64,000 nt of DNA from Watersipora subatra. Lineage: Eukaryota; Bryozoa; Gymnolaemata; Cheilostomatida; Watersiporidae. Under the pieces are notes generated by a model. That model was given only the letters and a program-made list of their open reading frames with translations, did not search any database and had not been told where the DNA came from. Where the stretch lies: positions 30,846,643-30,910,642 of the forward strand of contig NC_088714.1 in the NCBI RefSeq assembly GCF_963576615.1, in the 5' to 3' direction. The position numbers and the translations under genes are program-made. Of this stretch, positions 9,037 to 64,000 are shown one piece after another (the stretch's first letter is position 1; each line of letters begins with the position of its first letter).

Positions 9037-9436
9037 CTAGCGCAATGCCCGGCGTTGCACGGATATAGAAGACAGCTTATAAAACAGTGGCAGGTTATGT
9101 AATGGCCTGCCATTAGCATGGCACATTGCCGATGGCTAATTTGACTATGCTAGTTATCTACGACTCTTACTAATAATAGCCTTGAGAGCAAGCATCAAAT
9201 GACGTTGCACCGTAACGGAGAGCGACAGGGTATTTTCGACAGGGTATATCAACATATATCGCCCAATGAATCTATCAATCTTGCGTAGCTTAATTGGTAA
9301 GATATCTGCCTGGCGAATGGGAGATTCCGCGATCAAATCTTCTGCGATACGGGTTCTTTATTCTGATTTTTTAATAGCTATAGCTGGACTAACCAAAGTA
9401 CAGAATCACAGAATAACAGACCCACAAACTTTGAGG

Positions 9437-9496
<60 letters not shown>
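9037..9496 (-). mobile_element. Helitron-like non-autonomous element A
   Basis: On the plus strand it begins A|CTAGC with a decayed GCCCGGCGTTGCACGG hairpin. It contains a tRNA-like stretch at about 9282-9340 (GCGTAGCTTAATTGG as A box, GATCAAATC as a weak B box) and an AGCTATAGCTGGAC motif near 9376. It ends in AACTTTGAGG plus a long TA run. On the minus strand this corresponds to a Helitron with a hairpin and CTAG 3' end followed by T. Element B follows with no spacer. Confidence 0.6.
9439..9496. repeat. (TA)n microsatellite
   Basis: About 29 TA dinucleotides at the plus-strand right end of element A. Related copies end in TATATATAGA here, so the microsatellite seems to be an expanded element terminus. 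Open frames reading YIYIYI across it are artefacts. Confidence 0.95.
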
Positions 9497-9497
<1 letters not shown>

Positions 9498-10028
9498 TAG
9501 CTGGATGACCGGCATTACACGGCAAATAAAAAATAAATTTTCTACAGAAAATTTATTTTTACTCAACATGAACAACGATTACTATTCTAACTTTTAAAGG
9601 AATTTGTTTTGTTCTGTGTATGTACTGTGTTTTTATTTGTGTGCTGTGTTTATTTTTGTGGACTGCGTCTATCTCTGTGTAACTCATACTATACTGGCTT
9701 CAGTGCCTGCTACTGCGGATCTATACTGATTGCAATAGTCCTGTTGGCCATGTGAGTTCGAACATTTCTATTCATGTCTGGGCACACCTAACGCTAATTG
9801 CAGTGGTAAGCTCGAAGTCATAAATTATTGGCATGTGTAACAAGTATGTACTCAATTTATCCCATAGTGATAGCCAATTGGACAGCGTAGTGCATAGGAT
9901 AAATGTCTATCTGAAGAACTGGAGGTTCTGATTTCAAATCAAGTATGCAGCAGATTTTTTTATTTCTAAAACCTGATTGCTATAACTGGACATGCGGACA
10001 CACCGACAAACATCGATACCTATATAGA
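9497..10028 (-). mobile_element. Helitron-like non-autonomous element B
   Basis: It starts CTAG directly after A in element A's TA run and ends TATATAGA directly before element C. A tRNA-like module lies at about 9866-9943, with an A-box-like TAGCCAATTGG and a B-box-like GGTTCTGATTTCAAATC. A CTATAACTGGACATGCGGAC motif follows. It is clearly related to the copy at 56664. No coding capacity. Confidence 0.6.
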
Positions 10029-11191
10029 CTAGCTAAATGCTCGGCGTTGCCGGGTATTAAAAACATTTGAGCTCAAAAAATGTCTTTTTTTAATGTATGC
10101 AACATTTACCATTCTAACTATTAAACAGCATATCATGAAAAAAAAGTTTTATGCAGCTCAAATAAATTTACATAGAAATAAACAACTGTAAAGGAGTTTG
10201 TTTAAGTGTGAAATAAATAGCAAGTAACAACTACATGTACAGTGTAATGGCTGGATAGTCTGTTCAACTACATGTACAGTGTAATGGCTAGATAGTCTGT
10301 TCAACTACATGTACAGTGTAATGGCTAGATAGTCTGTTCAACTACATGTACAGTGTAATGGCTAGATAGTCTGTTCAACTACATGTACAGTGTAATGGCT
10401 AGATAGTCTGTTCAACTACATGTACAGTGTAATGGCTAGATAGTCTGTTCAACTACATGTACAGTGTAATGGCTAGATAGTCTGTTCAACTACATGTACA
10501 GTGTAATGGCTAGATAGTCTGTTCAACTACATGTACAGTGTAATGGCTAGATAGTCTGTTCAACTACATGTACAGTGATTTTGATGAAAAATGATAGTTT
10601 ACTGATACAATTAATACGAACAGAAAAAATAAAGTAAAAATCAGGAATATGTTGAATTAAATAATAACACTGATTACATAGAAGTGTGTGTGTAAAAAGG
10701 TTACTGTTGCAGTAGAAGCTATCCATCAAAATTTTAAATACAACAACACTGTACCTCTTGATACTGGTAAAAATGTAAAAAAGAGATATTGCTTCATAGG
10801 ATTGCCTTTAGGAAGAACCGCAAATTGAAGGAGTGTAATGGCACATTTGAAACTGAAACGTCACATTTGAAAATGAAAAATTAACAACTAGGTAATGGTT
10901 ATAAGGCTTTTAAAAACTTTGCAAAAGAAAACAAACAAAAAAGGTAATATTTAGTAATAATATAAAGTGCATATTTATCTTGTAACCTGCATTCGCGATA
11001 AAGATAGATAAGAAAATTGATGATAAAGAGATTGTAGTGTAATAGAGGCGCTTTGTCAGTAGACTGAGGTTCTGAGTTCAAATCTTGTGTGATGCAGATG
11101 TTTTATTCTTAGCTTTTAATTTCTCTAACTGGACACACGACAGATAGACCAACAGACAAATGACAGAGACTCATATTTTTATATATATAGA
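10029..11191 (-). mobile_element. Helitron-like non-autonomous element C carrying a minisatellite
   Basis: It starts CTAG with a CTCGGCGTTGCCGGGT hairpin and ends TATATATAGA|T. The interior holds the 37-bp minisatellite at 10229-10577, then a unique block (10580-10900) shared with the copy at 62614, then a tRNA-like end with B-box-like GGTTCTGAGTTCAAATC at about 11069-11085. Non-autonomous Helitron relatives with central tandem repeats are known in molluscs (pearl elements) and flies, which fits this layout. Confidence 0.65.
10229..10577 (+). repeat. 37-bp minisatellite, about 9.4 units
   Basis: The unit is AACTACATGTACAGTGTAAT followed by GGCTAGATAGTCTGTTC. Units are identical except that the first reads GGCTGG in place of GGCTAG. 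Such homogeneity indicates recent expansion. It lies inside Helitron-like element C. Confidence 0.95.
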
Positions 11192-21108: not shown

Positions 21109-21448
21109 TCTATAGGCCTATATATAAATGTGAAAGTATGTATGTTCCTCCAGCTATAACTATTATTAGAATAGCTGTAGCTGGACAACACTGACGCAAC
21201 ATCATGGCGCACCGTCATTATTGGAATTACTGGTATTTATTTACTGGAATTTTCCATTGGCATTGTGCCAGGCTAATAGCAAGTGGTAGGCAACTCTCAT
21301 CGCTTCTCATTGTTTGTAAGCTGATTTTTAATACCATTTTCCATTGGCAATGTGCCGGGCTAATAGCAAGTGGTTGGCAACTCTCATCACTTCTCATTGT
21401 TTATAAGCTGATTTTTAATGTCCGGGCAACTCTGAAAGACACAGCTAA
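21109..21448 (+). mobile_element. Helitron-like element in plus orientation with internal duplication
   Basis: It starts A|TCTATAGGCC and ends CACAGCTAA|T with a decayed TCCGGGCAACTCTG hairpin just upstream. It is the reverse complement of the family at 52465 and 60692. A block of about 105 bp (CCATTGGCA...GTGCC...CTGATTTTTAAT) is tandemly duplicated at about 21251-21350 and 21352-21420. An AGCTGTAGCTGGACA motif lies near the 5' end. Confidence 0.6.
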
Positions 21449-22217
21449 TATATCAATAAAACTGAAAGATTTCTTGCATTCAAGGATATCATTGAAGGAA
21501 AGTTTAGTTCGAGTTTGTGTTCATCATTAGTTATTACCTTTTCTGATCAACCTCTACACAAAAATGATGATGCAGGAGGCCCTATGCACAATTCAAAAAT
21601 CACATTTTGCTAGTTCAAACCTTTTATGATAACTACCCTGCATGTAGTCCTAAAGAGTTATAACTCTCACACAAATCATATAGGATGACTCATCATTTCT
21701 TGTAAGCGTCAAATACTTCCTCTTACAGAAATCTATACAAAGATTGGTATAATACATACATAATACAAAGATTGGTGATCACATATTCCAGCTAACCACA
21801 CTTCCACCAATCACATTACAAACTCCTTTGAACATATTGCCTTATCCTAAACTTGCTTGTTTCTGTATTTGTCTTACCAGTTTATATACCACTAATAAAA
21901 TACCTGCGCAAACTATGGCCAGAATATTTGTATTTCTCTTTCCACACATATGACAAACATTGTTTTCTATTCCATGACACCAACATACTACATCCACCAT
22001 CGTATGTTTCAGTTTATGAACTTTTGTTGCTACACACTACAACCTACAATTCACTAACTTGACTCCTTCCACAATACTATTAAATTATCAACTTGTAAAA
22101 CAATTTTTCCAACTCATACAATACTTCCTGATTTCTGTCTTTTTATTTTTTTTCTGGCATGTTATAAAAAACATTATTTTGTTGAGGATGACAAATGCTA
22201 ATAATAAGTTATGCATA
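21449..22217. other. No feature recognised
   Basis: AT-rich sequence; a 69-codon frame at 21853-22062 has no recognisable domain. Confidence 0.35.
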
Positions 22218-23180
22218 CGAGGTCTGATCCAAAAGTTCCCGGAATTGAGTTGTATACTCGTGCATATTCACACGATGGAAAAACCCATTGCAGGGTTAGC
22301 TGGGAAACACCTCTGGAGTGTTGTCACAAATTTTCAGGTTGCTATGACAATGCGTTCTCATGTGAGCTAACGATATGTCAAGGTCTGTCCGGTGCTTCGG
22401 TATTTTTTTTAACAAATTTATCGTCATGCCTAATCAATCGGAACAGCGTATTTGCATTAAATTTTGTGCGAAATTAGGGAAAACAAGTACTCAGACAGTT
22501 GAAATGTTAACTATTGCTTTTGAAGATGCTGGTCTATAAAGAACACAAATTTTTGAGTGGTACAAACGTTTTTGTGAAGGTAGAGACAGCACTGAAGATG
22601 ACGCGAGGTCTGGCAGACCAGCGTCGGCAAGAACCTGCTCGTAAATTGACAGTGTGAGGTCACTAGTCATGCCAGATCGACGTTTAACCATTAGAGATAT
22701 TTTGAGAGACTGGACTTATTTATCTTTGGAACTGTTCAAAAAGTTTTAACTGACAATTTAAACAATTTTTAACAGATTAAACAAGTCGCAGCAAAGTTCG
22801 TGCCAAGCTTGCTGACTGATGACCAAAACGAGCTCAGGATGCACGCTTGCAACGATTTTAAGGAAGCTTTCAAGAATGATCAAAACTTTATTTTAAAGGT
22901 CGTAATATCCTTGTTTTTCCTAATTTCACACAAAATTTAAAGCAAATGCGCTGTTCCTGTTTATTAGACATGATGATAAAAAAATTTTTTTAAAATACCG
23001 AAGCACCGGACAGACCTTGACATACCGTTAGCTCACATGAGAACGCATTGTCATAGCAACCTGAAATTTTGTGACAACACTCCAGAGGTGTTTCCCAGCC
23101 AACCCTGCAATGGGTTTTTCCATCGTGTGAATATGCACGAGTATACAACTCAATTCCGGGAACTTTTGGATCAGACCTCG
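22218..23180 (+). mobile_element. Mariner-type element with 270-bp inverted arms
   Basis: Termini CGAGGTCTGATCC and GGATCAGACCTCG are flanked on each side by TA, the canonical Tc1/mariner target duplication. The inverted arms (22218-22487 and 22910-23180) are nearly identical and include the 5' leader and the first codons of the transposase on both sides. Ordinary mariners have inverted repeats of about 30 bp, so the 3' end seems to have been replaced by an inverted copy of the 5' end. Confidence 0.9.
22425..22905 (+). pseudogene. Mariner transposase N-terminal remnant
   Basis: ATG at 22425 starts MPNQSEQRICIKFCAKLGKT, followed by a helix-turn-helix-like region with FEWYKRFCEGR and a DDARSGRPA linker, both characteristic of mariner/SETMAR-type transposases. 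Stops interrupt it at 22536 and near 22642, and it shifts frame near 22730. Another frame resumes with KFVPSLLTDDQN and KEAFKNDQNF. It ends where the right inverted arm begins, before the catalytic D,D,D/E region, so it cannot be active. The arm's second copy of the first codons lies inverted at about 22905-22970. Confidence 0.85.
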
Positions 23181-23285
23181 TACATACATAAGTGATAGGG
23201 ATGTAGCAGGCCTGATTGTACTTTCCACTTTTTACACGAAAGAATATTTTCATTACATTTATAGTCATAAATTCTGCTATCCTTC

Positions 23286-28323: not shown

Positions 28324-30132
28324 TCAATGGGAACAGTGCTGTTGGTCCCCCTTTTTAGCCAGCGCATCAAAGTCTGGAGTGAGTTTAGTTGTAGCAATTC
28401 TCAGGATGGATCTGAGGTGTTGGTCTGTTAATTGGGATCTGTGGCTGGCCTTGTTGATGTTCATGATGCTGAACGTCTGTTCACACACGTAGGTCGAGCC
28501 GAACAACGCCAGCATCTTCTGCGCTGTCCTCCGGAGATTTGGAAATGCGGCTTCATTGAATGAAGCATAAAAGTCATTCAGTTTCAGAGAGTTGAACTTC
28601 TCTTTTAAGACTGGGTCGGACTGAAGGTCGATCAGTTTGAGCTGCAGCTCCTCTGGAGCTGTTTCGGGGTCTTGTGACAGGGGACAGGCCACCAACTGAA
28701 GTGACTTGTCAATTTTTTCAAAATCGGAAAACCGACGGCAGAATTCTTCGTGCAGCGCATCTAGTGACTCGCTGTATTTCTTCACTTTTACGCAGGCCTC
28801 TTTCAGCGTAGCTAGTGTGGGAAAATGTGTGAATGACTTATTTAAAATTTGCCTGGAGAATAAAACCAGCTTGGATTTGAAGGCTTTCACGTTTGTGTAC
28901 ATGTCCTGCACAAACTGATCCTTCCCCTGTAGTTTCATGTTGAGCTCATTCATGTGTGAAAATACGTCCGCAGCAAACGCAAAGTCACACAGCCAGCTCT
29001 TGTTGCTCAGCTCAGGAAATTTGTCAACCTTTCCCTGTAACTCCAAAAATGCACCAATCTCCTCTTTGAGCTCCTACACTCGTTGAAACACTTTGCCCAA
29101 ACTTAACCAGCGGACTCGGGAGTGATAAAGCAGGTCCTGGTGATCCGCATCAGTTTCCTCCAGAAACGTAATGAACTGACGGTGCTGAAGTCCCCTTGCG
29201 CGAATAAAGTTGATGAGTTTCACGACAGGATTCACAACATGATTCAGCTGTAATACCGATTTACATAGAGATTCCTGGTGGATGATGCAGTGGAGAAAAA
29301 TAACATCCTGGTCAGGATTTTCATCTTTGACTTTATTTTGGATTCTCCTCAGCAGGCCAACGTTTTTCCCCGTTAAATTCGGAGATCCATCTGTGGTGAC
29401 GTTGATAAGTTTACTCCAAGGGAGCTTCATATTTTCGATGACAGCAGACACCCGGTCATACAAGTCTTCTCCCCGTGTTTGTCCTTTCAGAGACTCCATT
29501 GTCAAAAACTCCTCCGTTATTTCAAAAGTGTCGTTAATCCCTCGGATAAAAATGAGGAGCTGAGCAGTGTCTTTGACATCGTTGCTTTCATCCAGTGCTA
29601 ATGAATATAACGTGAATGACTCCGCCTTTTTATTTAAGTTGCTGGTGATATCTTCATCTATTAGTTCCACACGGCGAGTCACTGTCCTGCGCGATAAACT
29701 GATTTTTTCAAATTTGTCTTTGCTCTCTGGGCACAAGACACTTGCTGTCTCCACCATACATTCTTTTACAAACTCGCCTTCAGACAGAGGCTTGCTGGTC
29801 TTTGCCAGTTTGAATGAAAGCATAAAACTGGCCTTGGTACTTGACTCCTGAATGGCAGTTTGGCGGTGAAAAAAGTTTTGTTGAGTCTGTAAATTAGCCG
29901 CCAACTTCTGAGCAGTAGCTTCCCGTTCTTTTGTTGATAGCTTGCTAGCATAGTTAGCATGCTTTGTAGTAAAGTGACGGCTAATATTATATTCTTTAAA
30001 AACCGCAACAGTTTCCTGACATATCAGGCATACAGCAGATGATCGGTGTTCAGTGAAAAAATATTTAGTTGTCCACTCCTTTTTGAACACTCGACATTCT
30101 CTGTCCACCTTCCTTTTCTTAGGTCTGCTCAT
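28324..30132 (-). pseudogene. hAT transposase (BED-finger type) with one in-frame stop
   Basis: The frame begins at ATG 30132 and encodes 352 residues, meets TAG at 29074-29076, then continues in the same frame for about 249 residues to a stop at 28324, about 600 in all, which is normal for this hAT group. Residues 35-58 carry a CxxC...HxxxxH BED-type zinc finger for DNA binding. Asp181 (in LALDESNDV) and Asp248 (in TTDGSPN) fit the first two catalytic acids. The C-terminal part has the conserved CEQTFSIMN and hAT dimerisation segment (HRSQLTDQHLRSIL). The closest family I recognise is the GTF2IRD2/ZBED-like group. The single stop falls just after the RVRWLSLGKVFQRV motif, so the copy is probably inactive unless the stop is read through. 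Confidence 0.93.
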
Positions 30133-30267
30133 CTTTACAGAAGGACTGAGGGGTCAAAAAGCAAACGTGGAGTACCGTAATATGCGGAACCTCACCAAAG
30201 TCAATGTATCTAGAGTGCGCCATCTAGTGGGAACACATTAGAATTGCAGGGAAAATAAAACATTAAA

Positions 30268-34277: not shown

Positions 34278-35082
34278 AGCCAGGTGCAAAAAATTTAAAA
34301 AAAATGTATCGCAAGATTTTTTGTGGTAGTTCAGCATAAACATGTGGTCAATCGAGATGTCCACTTTTGCACGAATGAGATTTGTATGAATTTAAAAATC
34401 ATTAAATCACTTTAATTGGCGAAGCCTATAATTATAAGCTGAGATTCACAAAAGAATAGAAAACTACGAATTTATAGCAGAAGCTTTCATGCCAAAATAG
34501 ATTAATACTTGTTAAAACTGCTTTATTGCTCACCACCATAACAGTGTGTCAGCAGGCAGCATTGAAATAAAGCCTTGCATCCTTGAATTTTAACTGGTGT
34601 ACTACAAGTATTGCGTTTAAGAGCTCTTTTAACTGATTCGAGTAAGAAATATTGCTTACCAAGTCTATAATTTATATTCTTGGTTGATATTGGTGTTGCA
34701 GAAATTGGCTGCAAGATAAAATCAGATGATTGACCTGTGTAAACATGATGTTACCTGTTTAACAGCTACAGCTGGTCCTCATCCATTTATTGCTATCTGA
34801 GTGAGCCTGCATATACTCACAGGTGTCACATACAGAGAGCGCATTTAAGTAGAGACTCAAATAAATTGGATCTGTAACTTAGATGGATATCAGAAAGATA
34901 ATAAAAAGCCTACACATTTTTTTATGATTGCTTGGTTATTTGTCCAGCCATCCCTGTGAAGGGTGATTATACAAACCAATGAATAGGGCAGCCATGTTTG
35001 ACAGGGATATTGTGCTGATACACTGAAGCAAACACACAGGTCATGCATGAAAGCTGATGTTTTCTTCATGATGCTATACATT
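34278..35082. other. No feature recognised
   Basis: AT-rich sequence up to the Harbinger-like element. Confidence 0.4.
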
Positions 35083-35760
35083 CACTATGTTTCCATGATG
35101 CGCAGTGCTTCGGAGTTGCGCTATCTCCGAATCATGGAAACGGCGTCTTCGCACTGAAATCACTGCGCACTGATCAGTGCGAAGTCAGTGCAAATTCGCA
35201 GCAAAGAAACAGCGACTGCGCAGTGGCTGCGCATAGCTCTCATGCCGTGGATACGGATTCTTCGAAGGCCATACACTAGTACAAAGGTTGTCCTGCTAAT
35301 CTTGTTTTTTTATTCTTCCGATCTTCTTTCACCTAAATTTAATTATGGTCTGCATTCACGAGGATGATGAGGTAATTACTTTCCTGGACTTTGTTATCGA
35401 TGCCAACACATTTCGAAAAATAGGTGGCAAGTCCTAAATTAACGTATAAATAATATATTACTTAAAAATACTTATTAAAAATATATTATTTTGTAAAAAG
35501 TGTGTTAAGGTTTGTAAAACCTTGTGAATGTGTATTGTAAATAAAAGTATAATGACGACAGAATCATAAAAAGACCGTTTATGACGTTCGGTATCCGTGA
35601 TCGATTCTATTTCTCCATCAGGCGATTCGATTTATACAATTTCTCTTCTCTGGCTAATTTGCTGAAATTCTGAAAACCACTGCGCAGCATGGAAACGTAC
35701 AATCCCCTCGACTTCGGAGGGGGGCTGCTTCGCAGTACTGCGCACCATGGAAACATAGTG
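35083..35760 (+). mobile_element. PIF/Harbinger-like element (678 bp), 3-bp target duplication
   Basis: It starts CACTATGTTTCCATGATGCG and ends CGCACCATGGAAACATAGTG, with ATT on both sides (35080-35082 and 35761-35763). A three-base duplication suggests PIF/Harbinger. The left subterminal part is rich in TGCGCA/CACTGCGC words, including the 16-bp palindrome CGCACTGATCAGTGCG at 35166-35181. An ATG at 35345 opens MVCIHEDDE before a GAG|GTAATT donor-like site, perhaps the leftover first exon of the parent element. A second copy begins at 63705. Confidence 0.75.
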
Positions 35761-48441: not shown

Positions 48442-48791
48442 TTTAACCTACAGAAGTGTTATGAACTCTGCAAAATGCACAATATAAAGCATAACTATTT
48501 AATGTGTAGTTTTTCATCAAAAATCAAGTACAATTTTCAATCAACTACCATCTCTTATCTATTTTCTTCTCAGGACAAGGTTGACAACTAGCTTTTTGCT
48601 TGTTATGTAAAACAACAAAAAAAGCCCCTCTGCCAGATTACCTATTCTTCTTTAGCGCTTTCTTCTTGCAATGTTTTCTTTGGTGCTCAAGAAAGTGACA
48701 CCTAAAGGTCAATAAATATTGTGACACCTAGAGGTCTTTGAACATTAGACACTCAGATGACAGCCAATATTTTTAACCAGCCTTTTTTTTA
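48442..48791 (+). mobile_element. 350-bp repeat inserted with 14-bp target duplication
   Basis: TTTTATTCTATTTA occurs exactly at 48428-48441 and again at 48792-48805. The insert runs from TTTAACCTACAG to AACCAGCCTTTTTTTTA. A related copy in reverse orientation is at 51345-51690. The long exact duplication suggests target-primed retrotransposition, though the T-run at the plus-strand end is not an ordinary poly(A) tail, and AT-rich low-complexity flanks could mimic a duplication. Confidence 0.6.
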
Positions 48792-48847
48792 TTTTATTCT
48801 ATTTAAAAAATCGAGCGCCGTAGCATTCAAATAGAGGTATTACGGTA

Positions 48848-49327
48848 ATACCATCAATCTGTCTGTCTTGATGGCACATGATGGCAGGCACATCTGCTTG
48901 GAGTTGAGATGCGGTAGTACTTAAACCAGGAATAATAGTTTACATCACTTTATGTTGCTATCATAATAAAATCAAATTTCTTCAAAGAGTTGTTTCATAT
49001 TGAGATCATCACATTCTGGAGCGAATATTCCTTGAGAATACTTTCTAGTTTTGTTTTAATTTGTTCCTCAGAGACTCCGCGGCATGTCTGACTTTAACAT
49101 TGATATAAAAATTAGCTTCATTTATGGTTCTCTATTTTATTTGTCATTTTTCTCAGCTTCACTTTTGTTTATGGAACTGGAATGTTTTAAGATTGTTTTA
49201 TATTGTAAATTGGAAAATCTCCGGGTTGAGGTGGTCAGTTTAACTGTACTTTACAAAACATCTGCTTGCTGTACAAACATGATAGCCTGCCTACAGCAGT
49301 GTAGAGTAAAAGGTTTTTGTGGCTATT
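48848..49327. other. No feature recognised
   Basis: AT-rich; an 89-codon frame at 49084-49353 is hydrophobic but matches nothing I know. Confidence 0.3.
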
Positions 49328-49873
49328 ATACTCTGCTTCCATTGTGTGGATAATGCGAATCTAGAATTGCACGCATGTTGAGTGACAGTGCAATAAGTGT
49401 TTCAATTGACATCCACATGCTGAAAATAAAGGAATTTCACACTGGAAGTCAAAGCGGCGGCGCACTCCTGTCTCGCTTAGTAGCACGCTTTCAAAATAAG
49501 AATGACCAATGTATGAAAAATGTTCAAAGTAGAATAGGCTGCAAGGTATTTTTTTCGCATGATTCGTAAGTTCCGTTTCCATCTTCACAATATTTGCAAT
49601 TTCAATCGATGCTTTCTGATAAAATCTACCAAAAATTTTATTGAAGTTCATTTTTTGGCATAAAACTGTTAAAAATGGAATAGTTTGTTCGGCATTACAA
49701 GTGACGCTTCTATCTTTTGCAAACATAAAACATTCGATAAAAATTTGCGAGTAACGAAACCCGCTTGGTTTGTGGGTTTTTGCTGTTTCCATCTCATGAA
49801 TGATGCAAACTTGTGGATTAACTGTGGATTAACTGTGGATTAACTGTGGATTAACTGCGTAATAGAAACAGTG
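49328..49873 (+). mobile_element. Foldback family 1, copy with internal family 2 fragment
   Basis: It starts TACTCTGCTTCCATTGTGTG and ends AATAGAAACAGTG. It shares CGGCGCACTCCTGTCTCGCT and GATAAAAATTTGCGAGTAAC with 37626-38308. At 49613-49664 it contains TGATAAAATCTACC and GAAGTTCATTTTTT, the terminal part of foldback family 2. Near the right end an 11-bp unit (TGGATTAACTG) is repeated about four times at 49812-49857. Confidence 0.65.
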
Positions 49874-50010
49874 CGTGACTCTTCATGTGTTGGGTTCTAA
49901 TCAAGACTGGGCCGGTGTTGAAATTGTTTAAAATACTAGTAGAATAACCTTGAATAGAATCTTGCTGGACTGAACATAACCTGTACTTGTATATCTGAGA
50001 AGTTTAGTGC

Positions 50011-50055
<45 letters not shown>

Positions 50056-50416
50056 GTGATGTCTCAACTATCAACTGTATATATATTGTATATATTATAT
50101 ACATCCCAAGTTTTAGTTGAAGGCTGCTTCCTGTCACCCCTAATGTCAGCTAGATACGATGCATAGAAATGATGACTAGTGCTTGACAGTGCTTGCGTGA
50201 AACCTTAGCTGCTTCTGTAAACACTTGTACTCACAATAATCGGCAGCCAAAATACCAAAATATGACATTGACTGGCATTATGTTATTTCTTTAGCTAGTT
50301 TTTATCACATGTAGTTCTGAAAGCCGCTACACGCTTTTTATTGAGAAAGTTTTAGATGAAAGCTTCAGGTGAGGTCTGGGAGTTATCTTTGTCAATTGGT
50401 CTTGTAATTAAAATTA
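49874..50416. other. No gene; (AT)n microsatellite at 50015-50050
   Basis: Eighteen AT dinucleotides, then a short TATATATTGTATATATTATA run. The rest is unassigned. Confidence 0.6.
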
Positions 50417-51283
50417 CCGTAAACCCCTGCCATACGACATTAATTCGTTCTGGTGTAGGGATTGTAAGGCGAAAATGTTGTATAGAGGGGTATAGGAGCC
50501 CATAGTAATTATCCAATATAAACACTCCCAGTAAAAAATTATCAAAATTTTATATACATACAGTACATAACAAAAATTAGTAACAAAATAGTATATTAAA
50601 AGTTTGTAGTAAGTGTTATTGTGGTGGCAGGAGCGCACAGACATTATCAGCTGCATTTTAAAACTTACACCTTATTTTAGTGATCTTTAGCAGCTGTAGC
50701 TGTCACATATGGGTATCTATATTTAGCCATTTATTATATCATTTTCCTTGTGTACTGAATAATGTCTTACCACAACTTATGTAATTGCCATCACAAGTTT
50801 GACCATGCTATCTTATGTAATACCGTAGGTCAACCATATAAAAGGCTGGCACTTTTTCTGAGATGGCAGAGTAGTCTTTGGTTGTGATTGTGCCTGGTAT
50901 ATACAAATATACACTAAAGCACTCTACTCTCATGTGTTATTATTTCTGTGCCTGAAAAAGGGGAATTAACTAGTGTGCCGCAAAAGACTGGGCAGCACTG
51001 AAATGCGCAATATATTCAATATGATTTCACTCACGCAAGATCAAACTTTTACGAAACACGAAAAATGCTGAACCGAGAAAAAGAGCATTGTATCTCTTTC
51101 AGACGTCATAGGAGGCATTTTGGTGAATAACATATCGGCATCTTCGTGACTCTGATGTATAACAGCACACTGACCGCCAAATGTGAATTTCGAGAGACAT
51201 TTTTGTTGATGTATCGTGAGGAAAATACTGTAACACGGCGAGAAAACCGTAAGACAGGGACGCCATTACCCTGGAGTCTACTT
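50417..51283. mobile_element. Tigger-like element (about 867 bp), TA-flanked
   Basis: The left end CCGTAAACCCCTGCCATACG and right end (reverse complement AAGTAGACTCCAGGGTAATG) are diverged inverted repeats, each bordered by TA (50415-50416 and 51284-51285). The GTAGACTCC type terminus is typical of Tigger-like elements. The interior has no recognisable transposase. Confidence 0.55.
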
Positions 51284-51344
51284 TATATTCAAACAATTCT
51301 AAGCTGCTATATTTGATTACTGCTATATGCTGAGCACACTTTTT

Positions 51345-51690
51345 TACGGTCAGTTAAAAATATTGGCTGTCATCTGAGTGTCTAATGTTCAAAAACCTCT
51401 ATGTTTCATATCACAATATTCATTGACCTCTAGGTGTCACATTCTTGAGCACCAAAGAAAACATTGCAAGAAGAAAGCGCTAAAAAGAATAAGTAATCTG
51501 GCAGTGGAGCTTTTTGTCATTGTTTTACATAACAAGCAAAATGCTAGTGGTCAACCTTGTCCTGAGAAGGAAATAGATAGAAGATGGTAGTTGGTTAAAA
51601 ATTGTACTTGATTTTTGTTGAAGAAATACACATTAAATAGTTATGCTTCATATTTTGCAGAGTTTATGACTTTTTTGTAGGTTAAACGAA
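51345..51690 (-). mobile_element. Second copy of the 350-bp repeat
   Basis: Reverse complement of 48442-48791: GTTAAAAATATTGGCTGTCA at the left, CACCAAAGAAAACATTGCAA in the middle, GTAGGTTAAA at the right. A 70-codon plus-strand frame (51378-51590) is partly shared with the other copy but broken there. Confidence 0.65.
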
Positions 51691-52041
51691 AAATGAAAAA
51701 TTTGTTTTCACTTTCTCAACTGCATGTTGTTGCATGGTCAGCAAATTTTTTTCAAACACTGCATGAGTATTTTAGTTAACTGTAATGGAAACGATATCAT
51801 TATTATATGGGGTTATTCCATATGAAGGACCCAAATAAATGTCTGTGCATTTTGTTTGACAATGAATAGGCTAATGAAGAGAAGGTTCTTGTGCAAGCAT
51901 TAAGAGTTATCTCTGCAAATCAAGTGAAAAGGTTTGGCAAAAATCGGTAGCTTGCAAAAATTTATTGCATGCTGCTTGCATAGGTATTAATGTGAAATTA
52001 CTGTTTATTCGATAGCTTTAGAGCAACACTTTCTTAAAACT
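51691..52041. other. No feature recognised
   Basis: AT-rich sequence before the 46-bp minisatellite. Confidence 0.4.
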
Positions 52042-52464
52042 GGTTTATGGTTAGATATAGCAGAGTAGACAGAAGTTTAGAGCAACAGGTTTAGGATTAG
52101 ATACAGTAGACAGAAGTTGATAACAAGAGGTTTATGATTAGATACAGTACATTAGACAGAAGTTGATAACAACAGGCTTATGATTAGATGCAGTACAATA
52201 GACAAAAGTTTAGAACAACAGGTTTATGATTAGATACAGTACACTAAACAAAAGTTTAGAACAACAGGTTTATGATTAGATACAGTACACTAGACAAAAG
52301 TTTAGAACAACAGGTTTATGATTAGATACAGCAGAGTAGACAAAAGTTTAGGACAACAGGTTTATGATTAGATACAGTACAGTAGACAAAAGTTTAGAAC
52401 AACAGGCCTATGATTAGATACAGCAGAGTAGACAAAAGTTTAGAACAACAGGTTTATGATTAGT
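52042..52464 (+). repeat. 46-bp minisatellite, left part
   Basis: About nine units of GTTTATGATTAGATACAGTA followed by CACTAGACAAAAGTTTAGAACAACAG-type sequence, becoming more uniform rightward; early units are shorter and more diverged. The array is interrupted at 52465 and resumes at 52845. Confidence 0.9.
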
Positions 52465-52844
52465 CTAGCTGTGCTACCCGGCGTTGCCCGGGAATTAAAA
52501 ATCAGTGTATAAACAATGAGAGGTAATGAGAGTTGCCTGCCATGTGCTATTAGCCTGGCACATTGCCAATGGATAATTTGAGTAAGCTTACTAATAAGAG
52601 CTACCTGGTCTTATGATGTTACGCCATCACTTTGCATTGTGACGGGGAGCGGTAGCGTATTTGCTTCCATAATGATTACACCAATCTCGTGTGGCTGAAT
52701 TGGTAAGGCATCGGACTGGCCGAACCGGAGGGTCCGAGATCAAATTTTTTTCCATACGGTTTCTTTATTCCAAGATATTAATTAATAGCTACAGCTGGAC
52801 ATACCGAAGGACAGACGACAAACTTTGAGAAACATATATATCGA
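52465..52844 (-). mobile_element. Helitron-like element D inserted in a minisatellite
   Basis: It starts CTAGCTGTGCTACCCGGCGT with a clean hairpin and ends CATATATATCGA|T. Because it splits the array inside GATTAGATACAG, the empty site is known: no target duplication, with insertion between A and T if the base at 52464 mutated from A to T. A tRNA-like module lies at 52688-52746, with A-box-like TGGCTGAATTGGTAAGGC and B-box-like GGGTCCGAGATCAAAT. Confidence 0.75.
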
Positions 52845-52925
52845 TACAGCAGAGTAGAGAGAAGTTTATAACAACAGGTTTATGATTAGATACAGTACAG
52901 TAGACAGAAATTTAGAACAAAGTAT
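52845..52925 (+). repeat. 46-bp minisatellite, right part
   Basis: About 1.7 more units of the same array, beginning TACAGCAGAGTAGA directly after element D. Confidence 0.9.
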
Positions 52926-56663: not shown

Positions 56664-57202
56664 CTAGCTGAATGTTCGGCATCGCGCAGGTGAAAAAAAG
56701 GTTTTTTGCCCAGAAAATTTACTTTCATTCCATATATACACCATTTATCATTGCAACTTTTGTATGAAGGTGTTTGTTTATTTCTGTCCACAGTGTTTAT
56801 TTCTGGGTAATTGTACGGTACCGGCTGCAGTACCTACTACAGCTCTATACTGATAGCAATAATCTTACTGTCCGTGTGAGTTTAAGCATTTTTTTCATAT
56901 ATGGGCACACACATGTATTTTTTTTCTGATATGGTTTCATGCATAATGCCAGTTGTAGTGTTGAGCGTGAAGCCAAAAAATTGGCATGTGTAATAAGTAT
57001 GTGTCCAATTCATTCTATTGCATAGCCAATTAAACAATGAAGTGTATTGGATAAATGAATGTCTGCAGAACTGGAGGTTCTGAGTTTAAATCTAGTGCGC
57101 AGCTGGTTTTGACTTCCTAAAACTATCGCTATAACTGGACACGCAGACGGAAAGATGGACAAACAAACAACACACGCAACAGAATACGGACAAACACTTG
57201 CG

Positions 57203-57241
<39 letters not shown>
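56664..57241 (-). mobile_element. Helitron-like element E
   Basis: It starts A|CTAGCTGAATG and ends in an (AT)n run at 57206-57239, then GA|T. A tRNA-like module at 57019-57093 has A-box-like CATAGCCAATTAAAC and B-box-like GGTTCTGAGTTTAAATC. It is closest to element B (shared GTGTTTATT, ACTGCAGC / GATAGCAATA, CTATAACTGGACACGCAGAC). Confidence 0.65.
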
Positions 57242-60691: not shown

Positions 60692-61339
60692 CTAGCTGTG
60701 CTACCCGGCGTTGCCCGGGCATTAAAAATCAGCTTATAAACAATGAAAAGTAATGAGAGTTGCCTGCCACTTGCTATTAGCCCGGCACATTGCCAATGGA
60801 TAATTTGAGTAAGCGTAACGTCATGGAGAGCTACCCCTCTCCAGGACGTTACGCCATCACCCTGCGTAGTAACGGAGAGTGGTTGCGTATTTGCTCCAAT
60901 ATAGCGACATATATCGCCTAGGGAGTCTATCAATCTTGTGTGGCTGAATTGGTCTGGTGTCCGACTGGTGAATGGAAGGGTTTGAGATCAAATCTTCTCC
61001 GGTATGGATTCTTTATTCCAAGATTTTATTAGCTATAGCTGGACATATACAACGACAACAAACTTTGAGAAAAATATATATCCATCGTTTTTTTTGACGT
61101 CATCAAGTCGTTTGCACATGCGCTCGTTCATGAAAAATCTGCCATATTTGTAGAAAACGATCATTTTCTTTTATTTAATAGTACTTTTTAGTGTTGTTTT
61201 AATACTATAATAAAAAAATTGCAAACAAAAGCATCATTTTTAAAAATTCATTGCAAAAGCTTCGTGTTTTTAACGATAAAATTGTCTATAAAGGTAGCCG
61301 ACAACGATAAAATGGCGTCACGAAAAAACGAAAGATAGA
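60692..61339 (-). mobile_element. Helitron-like element F, interrupted by a MITE
   Basis: It starts A|CTAGCTGTGCTACCCGGCG with a clean hairpin and shares nearly all its length with element D. The tRNA-like module is at 60936-60993 (TGGCTGAATTGG; GGGTTTGAGATCAAATC). Near its right end the TATA run is split by a 255-bp element at 61081-61335; after that, TAGA ends F and element G starts at once. Confidence 0.65.
61081..61335. mobile_element. TA-flanked miniature element (255 bp)
   Basis: The left end TCCATCGTTTTTTTTGACGT and right end (reverse complement TCTTTCGTTTTTTCGTGACG) form imperfect inverted repeats of about 24 bp. TA lies on both sides (61079-61080 and 61336-61337). The type fits a Tc1/mariner MITE. 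The interior is AT-rich. Confidence 0.65.
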
Positions 61340-61809
61340 CTAGCTGTACTACCCGGCGTTGCCCGGGTAATAGAAAAGTCTTGGGACAGAAAATTGATGT
61401 GTATTTAACATATAACAACAACATTTTCCATTCTAACTTTTAAACTACATATCATGAGAAAAGTGTTTTGTCTTATAAACAATGAGAAGTAGTGAGAGTT
61501 GCCTGCTATTAGTCTGCGCGCTATTAGCCAGTACGGTTAATAATGTGAGCGAACAGCTTCTCGTGACGTTATGCTATGACCCGCGTCGTACGCAAAGCCG
61601 TTAGGTATTTGCTCTCATATAATGACTTATATTGGCAAGCTAGCAATTCGATGTAGTCTAGTGGGTCGGGTGTCGGACTGGTGAACGGCAGGGTCTGAGA
61701 TCGAATCTTCTTCGGTATGGAATCTTTATTCCGAGATTTTAAGATCTATAGCTGGACAATCAAACCTACAATACACAAAAGACGACCAACTTTGAGAAAT
61801 GTATATAGA
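61340..61809 (-). mobile_element. Helitron-like element G
   Basis: It starts CTAGCTGTACTACCCGGCGT, with the perfect 6-bp stem ACCCGG/CCGGGT around CGTTGC, and ends GTATATAGA|T. It contains the best tRNA-like module, at 61650-61709: TAGTCTAGTGGG as A box and GGGTCTGAGATCGAATC as B box. It abuts element F with no spacer. Confidence 0.7.
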
Positions 61810-62613: not shown

Positions 62614-63150
62614 CTAGGTGAATACCTGGCATTGCTCGGGTAATAAAAAAGTCTTTGCGCAAAAAACTAATTCTTATTTAGAATCTTCAACATTTACCAA
62701 TCTAACTTTTAAACTTAATAATTTCAGAAAAATGTTTTTGTGCAGTTCAAATAAATTTTGTGTGCAGTTCAAATAAATTAAGTGCAAAAATAAAAAATGA
62801 GTACATGGAAGTGTGTGTATAAAGAAAGTTACTGTTGCAGCAGAAACTCGTTGTATTTAAAGTTTTGATGGACAACATTGGTACCTCGCGATACTGGTGC
62901 AAATGTAAAAATGAGATATCGGACTTACTTTGTCTGATACTTTGTCTGAATGAATGGACGGAGAGGGTAAAGGCTATTCTTATTCCAGATAAAACAATTG
63001 TCCAGGGGAAAAGCATTTAGCTTTTACAGATTTACAGAAGCTGTAAACATGAGTGCAACAACACATTTGAAATTGAAACAACACATGTGAAAACTACAAA
63101 TTAAAAAATTAGGTAATGGTAAAGAAAAAATAGTTTTAAAGTACTACTTA
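62614..63150 (-). mobile_element. Helitron-like element H, right end unclear
   Basis: It starts A|CTAGGTGAATACCTGGCATT and is related to element C over GAAGTGTGTGT, GTTACTGTTGCAG, GATACTGGT, AAATGAGATAT / AAAGAGATAT and ATTAGGTAATGGT. It lacks the 37-bp minisatellite, and no tRNA-like end was found past about 63130, so it is truncated. Confidence 0.55.
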
Positions 63151-63603: not shown

Positions 63604-63704
63604 TGTGTGGCTAAGATACTGTTTATAGCTTGGTTTACGGGTTATTAAAAGGTGATCAAGTTTTTCAGGTATGTTTTAGTTATTATGACGTTGTACCTAT
63701 ATGT

Positions 63705-64000
63705 CACTATGTTTCCATGATGCGCATTGCTATGGAGTTGTGCCCTCTCCGAATCATGGAAACGGCGTCCTCGCACTGAAATCACTGCGCACTGATCAGT
63801 GCGAAGCCAGTGCTAATTCGCAGCAAGGAAACAGCAATTGCGCAGTGGCTGCGCATAGCTCTCATGCCGTCGAAACGGATTCTTCGAGGGCCATAAACTA
63901 GTACAAACGTTATCCCGCTAATCTTGTTTTTTTTTTATTTTTCTGATCTTCTTTCACCTAAATTTAATTATGGTCTGCACTCACGAGGATGATGAGGTGA
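63705..64000 (+). mobile_element. PIF/Harbinger-like element, second copy (cut by window end)
   Basis: It starts CACTATGTTTCCATGATGCG and follows the element at 35083 closely, including the GCGCACTGATCAGTGCGAAG palindrome and the ATGGTCTGCA...GATGATGAGG start-like segment at 63970. The right half lies outside the window. Confidence 0.8.

Follow-up and report, generated by a model that had tools for sequence, protein, structure and literature searches.

The passages of PMC4778049 that deal with element ends describe Helraiser/Helibat1 as having 5'-TC and CTAG-3' ends, inserting at A^T and carrying a 19-bp palindrome 11 nt from the 3' end. MER6 and MER6A, in the part of PMC6887750 concerned with them, are a mariner-type MITE with the body and tail of a V-SINE, without its tRNA-related head. 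For PxSE1, a tRNA-derived SINE, the relevant section of PMC8010984 reports a 72-bp region 64% identical to a tRNA. The locus described here lies in a 64-kb stretch of DNA, which we call the window and whose GC content of ~36% and hAT-type transposase give it a eukaryotic character.

Ends and insertion of elements A to G

We delimited seven elements in the window, A to G, and saw two further members, K21 and H:

Element A: 9037-9495, - strand; Helitron whose left end is of type I; on the right, (AT)n continues as far as element B and no TC end was seen
Element B: 9497-10028, - strand; Helitron with a type II left end, its TC end adjoining the CTAG end of element C
Element C: 10029-11191, - strand; Helitron with a type II left end, containing a 37-bp tandem array at 10228-10577
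Element D: 52465-52844, - strand; Helitron within a 46-bp tandem array
Element E: 56664-57241, - strand; Helitron with a type II left end and a long (TA)n ahead of the TC end
Element F: 60692-61083, - strand; Helitron with CTAG at 60692, a hairpin and a worn TC end
Element G: 61340-61809, - strand; non-autonomous Helitron with its CTAG end at 61340 and its TC end at 61809
K21: 21115-21449, + strand; damaged type I copy in the opposite orientation to A to G, left tip TTAG rather than CTAG
H: 62614-63120, - strand; type II left end and C-like body, no module or right end found

On the + strand, all seven elements start with CTAG, followed by a CCCGGCGTTGCCCGGG-like palindrome that is strong in D, F, and G and worn in the others. 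The base before CTAG is a host A in 6/7 and a T in D. The palindrome stem CCCGG/CCGGG in D, F, and G has a folding energy of -11.5 to -16.1 kcal/mol; the palindrome near the CTAG end is weaker in A (-8.5 kcal/mol) and C (-5.7) and degenerate in B, E, and H (-2.9 to -4.3 kcal/mol). At the right end, the + strand runs into an AT-rich tail whose last two bases are GA in five of the seven (B, C, D, E, and G), with a T following in four of these; the GA is absent from A and F. Read on the - strand, A to G therefore have the Helitron layout of TC, palindrome, and CTAG. No transposase was noticed within A to G in a Pfam search that covered 4 of the 11 listed open reading frames of the window. The CTAG 3' end, the 5' TC, the palindrome, and an A^T target without duplication were all found, as in Helitrons of the TC/CTAG type, and the best explanation of A to G is that they are old, non-autonomous Helitrons.

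Element D comes with a natural empty site. It splits a 46-bp array (52038-52463) that resumes in phase at 52843 (52843-52920), and its flanks rejoin with at most a 1-base ambiguity and no target-site duplication of 2 bp or more. The site would be A^T, as for Helitrons, if the present T before CTAG arose by mutation of an A. Since D interrupts the array without a duplication of at least 2 bp, we conclude that its movement was that of a Helitron, not of a SINE. None of A to G has a target-site duplication directly at its ends, and the longest words common to their 25-nt flanks measure 2-6 nt and do not lie at the ends. Retrotransposition of the whole unit as a SINE was ruled out on these flanks, that is, on the missing duplication and on the array split by D. 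The several-base-pair duplications at the ends that mark SINEs were not found in A to G, and neither were stand-alone copies, as all seven significant module matches in this one 64-kb window fall inside Helitron-ended elements.

Elements A, B, and C are arranged head to tail (9440-9497; junction 10028-10029). At the B/C junction, TATATAGA is followed immediately by CTAG, so that CTAG is joined directly to TC on the Helitron strand. This exact contact between the TC of B and the CTAG of C resembles a Helitron circle junction, though the bodies of B and C differ, and for that reason the pair is not a simple concatemer. The units of the 37-bp array in C (10228-10577) are 99% identical.

Other mobile or repeated sequences were seen in the window. 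A hAT-type transposase at 28324-30153 (- strand) consists of two adjoining frames, with Pfam Dimer_Tnp_hAT in one and a zinc finger in the other. An inverted repeat at 22216-23182, with 191-nt arms that are 98% complementary and separated by 585 nt, has the appearance of a recent foldback or MITE-like element, and inverted arms of 148 and 74 nt (90% and 96%) lying ~2.7-2.9 kb apart in 48476-51659 may belong to a DNA transposon. A dispersed repeat of ~300 bp occurs at 35082-35373 and 63704-63998 (91-94% identical).

The A/B-box module

The consensus of the Pol III A box is TRGYNNARNNGG or TRGYNNARNGG, and that of the B box is GWTCRANNC. Scored against these, the modules of the seven elements are as follows:

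Module of A: 9286-9339, + strand; both boxes perfect, at 9286-9297 (A) and 9331-9339 (B), with a spacing of 45 nt
Module of B: 9888-9940, + strand; A box with one mismatch, B box with one mismatch, 44 nt apart
Module of C: 11035-11084, + strand; A box with one mismatch, B box perfect (GTTCAAATC), 41 nt apart
Module of D: 52692-52746, + strand; A box 52692-52703 perfect, B box 52738-52746 with one mismatch, 46 nt apart
Module of E: 57040-57092, + strand; worn, A box with two mismatches, B box with one mismatch, 44 nt apart
Module of F: 60941-60994, + strand; both boxes perfect, at 60941-60952 (A) and 60986-60994 (B), with a spacing of 45 nt
Module of G: 61654-61707, + strand; both boxes perfect, at 61654-61665 (A) and 61699-61707 (B), with a spacing of 45 nt; first T-run at 61737

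The initial annotation had placed tRNA-like motifs of G at 61650-61709, and we found TAGTCTAGTGGG at 61654-61665 and GATCGAATC at 61699-61707, inside 61340-61809. The pair TGGCTGAATTGG...GAGATCAAAT that it gave for D and F is present in both. It had also assigned GGTTCTGAGTTCAAATC to B, C, and E, which is exact in C only, with B and E each one base off. Element A, which was not among the module carriers listed, has a perfect pair too (9286/9331).

Total box mismatches are zero in A, F, and G, one in C and D, two in B, and three in E; both boxes are thus intact in 3/7 copies, and five of the seven have at most one mismatch in total. All seven modules lie on the + strand, antisense to the Helitron and near its 5' end. 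Our profile, pair search, and consensus all bear out the earlier proposal of tRNA-spaced A/B-box modules inside Helitron-ended elements on the opposite strand. The distance from the end of the B box to the right end of the element is 88-107 nt in B, C, D, F, and G, 149 nt in E, and 156 nt in A; A and E, the two with the largest distance, have long (AT) runs at that end. Measured from the element ends, the A box lies 140-209 bp in from one side and 227-1006 bp in from the opposite side.

A script-made majority consensus of a 7-row alignment has both boxes perfect and 45 nt apart, as in tRNA; its A box is based on six copies, as the row of C starts inside the A box. A profile built from the seven copies found these seven by construction (E 5e-43 to 2e-30, all on one strand), and its next matches were the tail of K21 and a neighboring piece (E 0.05-0.06). 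With this profile, no free-standing copy of the module was recognizable in the 64-kb window. Exact patterns of the CTAG end and the module tail had no match in viral_contigs or genome_contigs, so that the members described here all come from the window. The module is present in seven of the nine members seen. It is absent from K21, whose right part is damaged and has no A/B boxes (the profile matches only its tail, E 0.05), and H has no detectable right end. K21 also contains an 87-bp duplication at 21240-21413, with inverted GCTATAGCTGGA-like copies nearby in the module's place. Loss of the boxes from a consensus and absence of the module from most members had been named beforehand as outcomes that would speak against the proposal; within the window, the consensus keeps both boxes perfect at 45 nt, and most members carry the module.

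To gauge chance expectation, we looked for perfect A and B boxes spaced by 36-60 nt in the window and in single-strand dinucleotide shuffles. Three such pairs occur on the + strand of the window (A, F, and G, all at 45 nt) and none on the - strand, and each of 20 whole-window shuffles had none. With up to one mismatch in total, there were six pairs on the + strand (five in the elements and one at 21568), none on the - strand, and 0-4 per shuffle. When single elements were shuffled 200 times, the observed score was matched by none of the shuffles for A, F, and G, by 2 for D, by 5 for C, by 16 for B, and by 147 for E, which makes the modules of B and E weak on their own. Because the module copies are homologous, the box matches do not amount to seven independent events.

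We then examined whether the module folds as a tRNA. At default settings, ARAGORN called no tRNA in the window, the consensus, or the copies. The tRNA covariance search suggested by the initial annotation gave no support: with Rfam, the modules of A, B, D, E, F, and G gave no tRNA hit at E<=10, and the window gave none at gathering score, the latter being the sole Rfam coverage of the module of C. Cloverleaf stem pairs in five copies did not exceed those in box-keeping shuffles (p 0.16-0.96), and RNAalifold gave a weak hairpin, not a cloverleaf. With ARAGORN relaxed to 90%, calls were made in 1/7 copies (E), 1/500 box-keeping shuffles, and 0/500 window pieces; at 75%, in 4/7 copies (A, C, E, and G), 91/500, and 23/500 (Fisher p 0.026 against shuffles and 2e-4 against window pieces); and at 50%, in 5/7, 202/500, and 69/500, respectively. 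The script-made consensus yielded no ARAGORN call at any threshold, and a hand-filled consensus yielded a tRNA-Ala call at 75%. In drawings of the relaxed folds, read by eye, the B box falls in the T loop only in C, and A, E, and G are out of register, so that these relaxed matches are a hint at most. No convincing cloverleaf survives in the module; the promoter grammar remains, as in worn SINE heads. A tRNA origin is suggested by the two short boxes and their spacing.

The first run of at least four T lies 1-30 nt downstream of the B box in 7/7 copies, giving a predicted Pol III stop after ~66-94 nt if the count starts 12 nt upstream of the A box. With a background probability of 0.39 per 50 nt and with related copies, these T-runs are weak evidence. 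In A, D, F, and G, the ten strict box positions have 1/40 mismatches compared to 56/336 in the other columns (P 0.016 by random column sets), which is suggestive of better conservation of the box positions than of their neighbors, in a test that was small, chosen after seeing the data, done on related copies, and restricted to these four, with B, C, and E left out. If a copy were still transcribed by Pol III, the product would be short, an antisense RNA of ~65-95 nt that stops at the first T-run, and not a full-length SINE transcript.

Origin of the module and exchange of ends

The initial annotation had distinguished two tRNA-like heads. We compared the modules of A, D, F, and G with those of B, C, and E by BLAST and obtained a match at E 1e-3 in 14/21 element pairs, comprising 9/9 within types and 5/12 between them. 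Within the B-C-E type, B and C match at 73% over 91 bp and C and E at 69% over 101 bp. Between types, the matches are A-C (72%, 78 bp), C-F and C-G (both 71%, 69 bp), C-D (70%, 56 bp), and B-F (61%, 123 bp), four of the five involving C. The pairs without a module match at this threshold are A-B, A-E, B-D, B-G, D-E, E-F, and E-G. The B-box half and the tail align across types and the A-box half is more diverged; in the 7-row alignment, B and E are one base short in the A-box half. In place of two heads, we thus see a single module that has diverged and that occurs with two left-end types and several bodies.

The left ends themselves fall into type I (A, D, F, and K21) and type II (B, C, E, G, and H). 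Element G is a mosaic of a type II left end with a type I body piece and module; its left 130 bp match C and H, and the first 37 bp of these are matched by D and F as well, at 89%. D and F agree at 117/126 positions on the left and 186/244 in the rest (Fisher p 5e-5, for a split chosen after seeing the alignment), a contrast that agrees with exchange of ends. The right end with the module is therefore what A to G have in common, and the rest would have been exchanged.

Taken together, we consider it probable that a single ancient SINE-like Pol III promoter module was captured next to a Helitron 5' end and was thereafter inherited with it, with exchange of the other ends and bodies. Under this model, a Helitron ancestor would have gained, once, a SINE-like module (tRNA-derived or tRNA-type) in antisense, ~100 bp inside its 5' (TC) end. 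The module would have stayed with the terminal segment of the 5' end as bodies and 3' ends were swapped, giving the different elements, and these would have spread by rolling-circle transposition with the module mainly a passenger. Several observations run against this account: there is no convincing cloverleaf, the boxes are intact in only 3/7 copies, K21 has the left end without the module, and 7/21 pairs, all of them between types, have no module match. The earlier label of a SINE-Helitron composite remains the best one available, provided that it refers to a single ancestral event and not to several heads.

We weighed this model against others. Could two or more different SINEs have been captured independently by related Helitrons? 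The A-D-F-G and B-C-E modules do differ, mostly in the A-box half, and 7/12 between-group pairs are without a module match. Independent capture of two heads was nevertheless set aside because the module is homologous between types by both profile and BLAST: the B-box half and tail are homologous in the other 5/12 pairs, with C bridging four, and all seven modules share one strand and sit close to the same end, which leaves this reading very improbable. That the units are SINEs moved by a LINE, with Helitron-like ends as mere look-alikes, we find scarcely credible. Several copies do have tRNA-type boxes followed by a GACA-rich tail; the lack of a duplication abutting the ends of A to G and the splitting of the tandem array by D already contradict the idea, and the distances of the A box from the two element ends and CTAG at the left of 7/7 speak against it as well. 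It is also unlikely that the boxes are a chance likeness in ordinary conserved subterminal sequence of a Helitron 5' end, with no tRNA or SINE history. Such a likeness would account for the missing cloverleaf and covariance match, and one ancestral coincidence would suffice for all of these homologous copies. Against it, perfect pairs occur only in the elements and all at tRNA spacing, 0/20 window shuffles had any, 0/200 shuffles each matched A, F, and G, and the consensus is perfect in both boxes.

The module could instead be a working part of the Helitron 5' end, namely, an internal Pol III promoter that is kept by selection and whose antisense transcription acts on that end. Proposed modes are opening of the end, a regulatory RNA, or blocking of sense transcription. 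Apart from the CTAG/palindrome tip, it is the segment that A to G have in common, near one end, on one strand, and with different bodies; the left terminal sequence (LTS) is essential in Helraiser according to the relevant part of PMC4778049; and the box-position counts (1/40 vs 56/336 mismatches, P 0.016, in A, D, F, and G) and a run of at least four T within ~30 nt of every B box point the same way. However, that conservation test was small and post hoc, on related copies without B, C, and E, and T-runs are common here (P 0.39 per 50 nt). The boxes of B and E are worn, and the part of PMC4778049 on cleavage places the Helraiser determinants in the terminal 40 bp, i.e., outside the module. 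On this balance, we regard a working module as improbable. A stronger form, in which an antisense Pol III unit is built into the 5' segment across families and selected, with an RNA of ~65-95 nt or polymerase traffic controlling access to the 5' end, strikes us as quite doubtful; if true, it would give a Helitron end its own Pol III regulatory unit.

Relation to known systems

In the parts seen of the open-licence literature, a scope with Repbase outside it and hence weak evidence of novelty, we found no description of Helitron ends with a tRNA-like module in antisense or of a SINE-Helitron composite of this kind. If the module proves widespread, these Helitrons would be carrying tRNA-type promoters to new places; this could spread Pol III sites and short RNAs through a genome and mislead the annotation of SINEs and Helitrons. 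Persistence of the module across exchanged ends would also make it possible to test whether the 5' segment of a Helitron requires anything beyond its terminal bases.

The 37-bp array of element C is like the satellite arrays carried by Helitrons in PMC12692304, whose passages on such elements do not mention tRNA-like modules of the kind found in A to G. With PxSE1, as the section of PMC8010984 presents it, A to G have in common a short module containing Pol III A and B boxes; unlike in PxSE1, the programs used matched no tRNA to these modules, which also lack a duplication and have no free copy in the window. As in Helraiser/Helibat1, in the passages of PMC4778049 on these elements, A to G have TC and CTAG ends (TC being joined to CTAG here at the B/C junction), an A^T target, and a palindrome. 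They differ in the antisense A/B-box module ~100 bp inside the 5' end, and no transposase was noticed in them. The closest published parallel that we found is MER6, as described in the part of PMC6887750 on it, in which a SINE-derived piece was likewise multiplied by a DNA transposon. In MER6, the carrier is a mariner and the head is missing, whereas in A to G the boxes are kept and the carrier is a Helitron.
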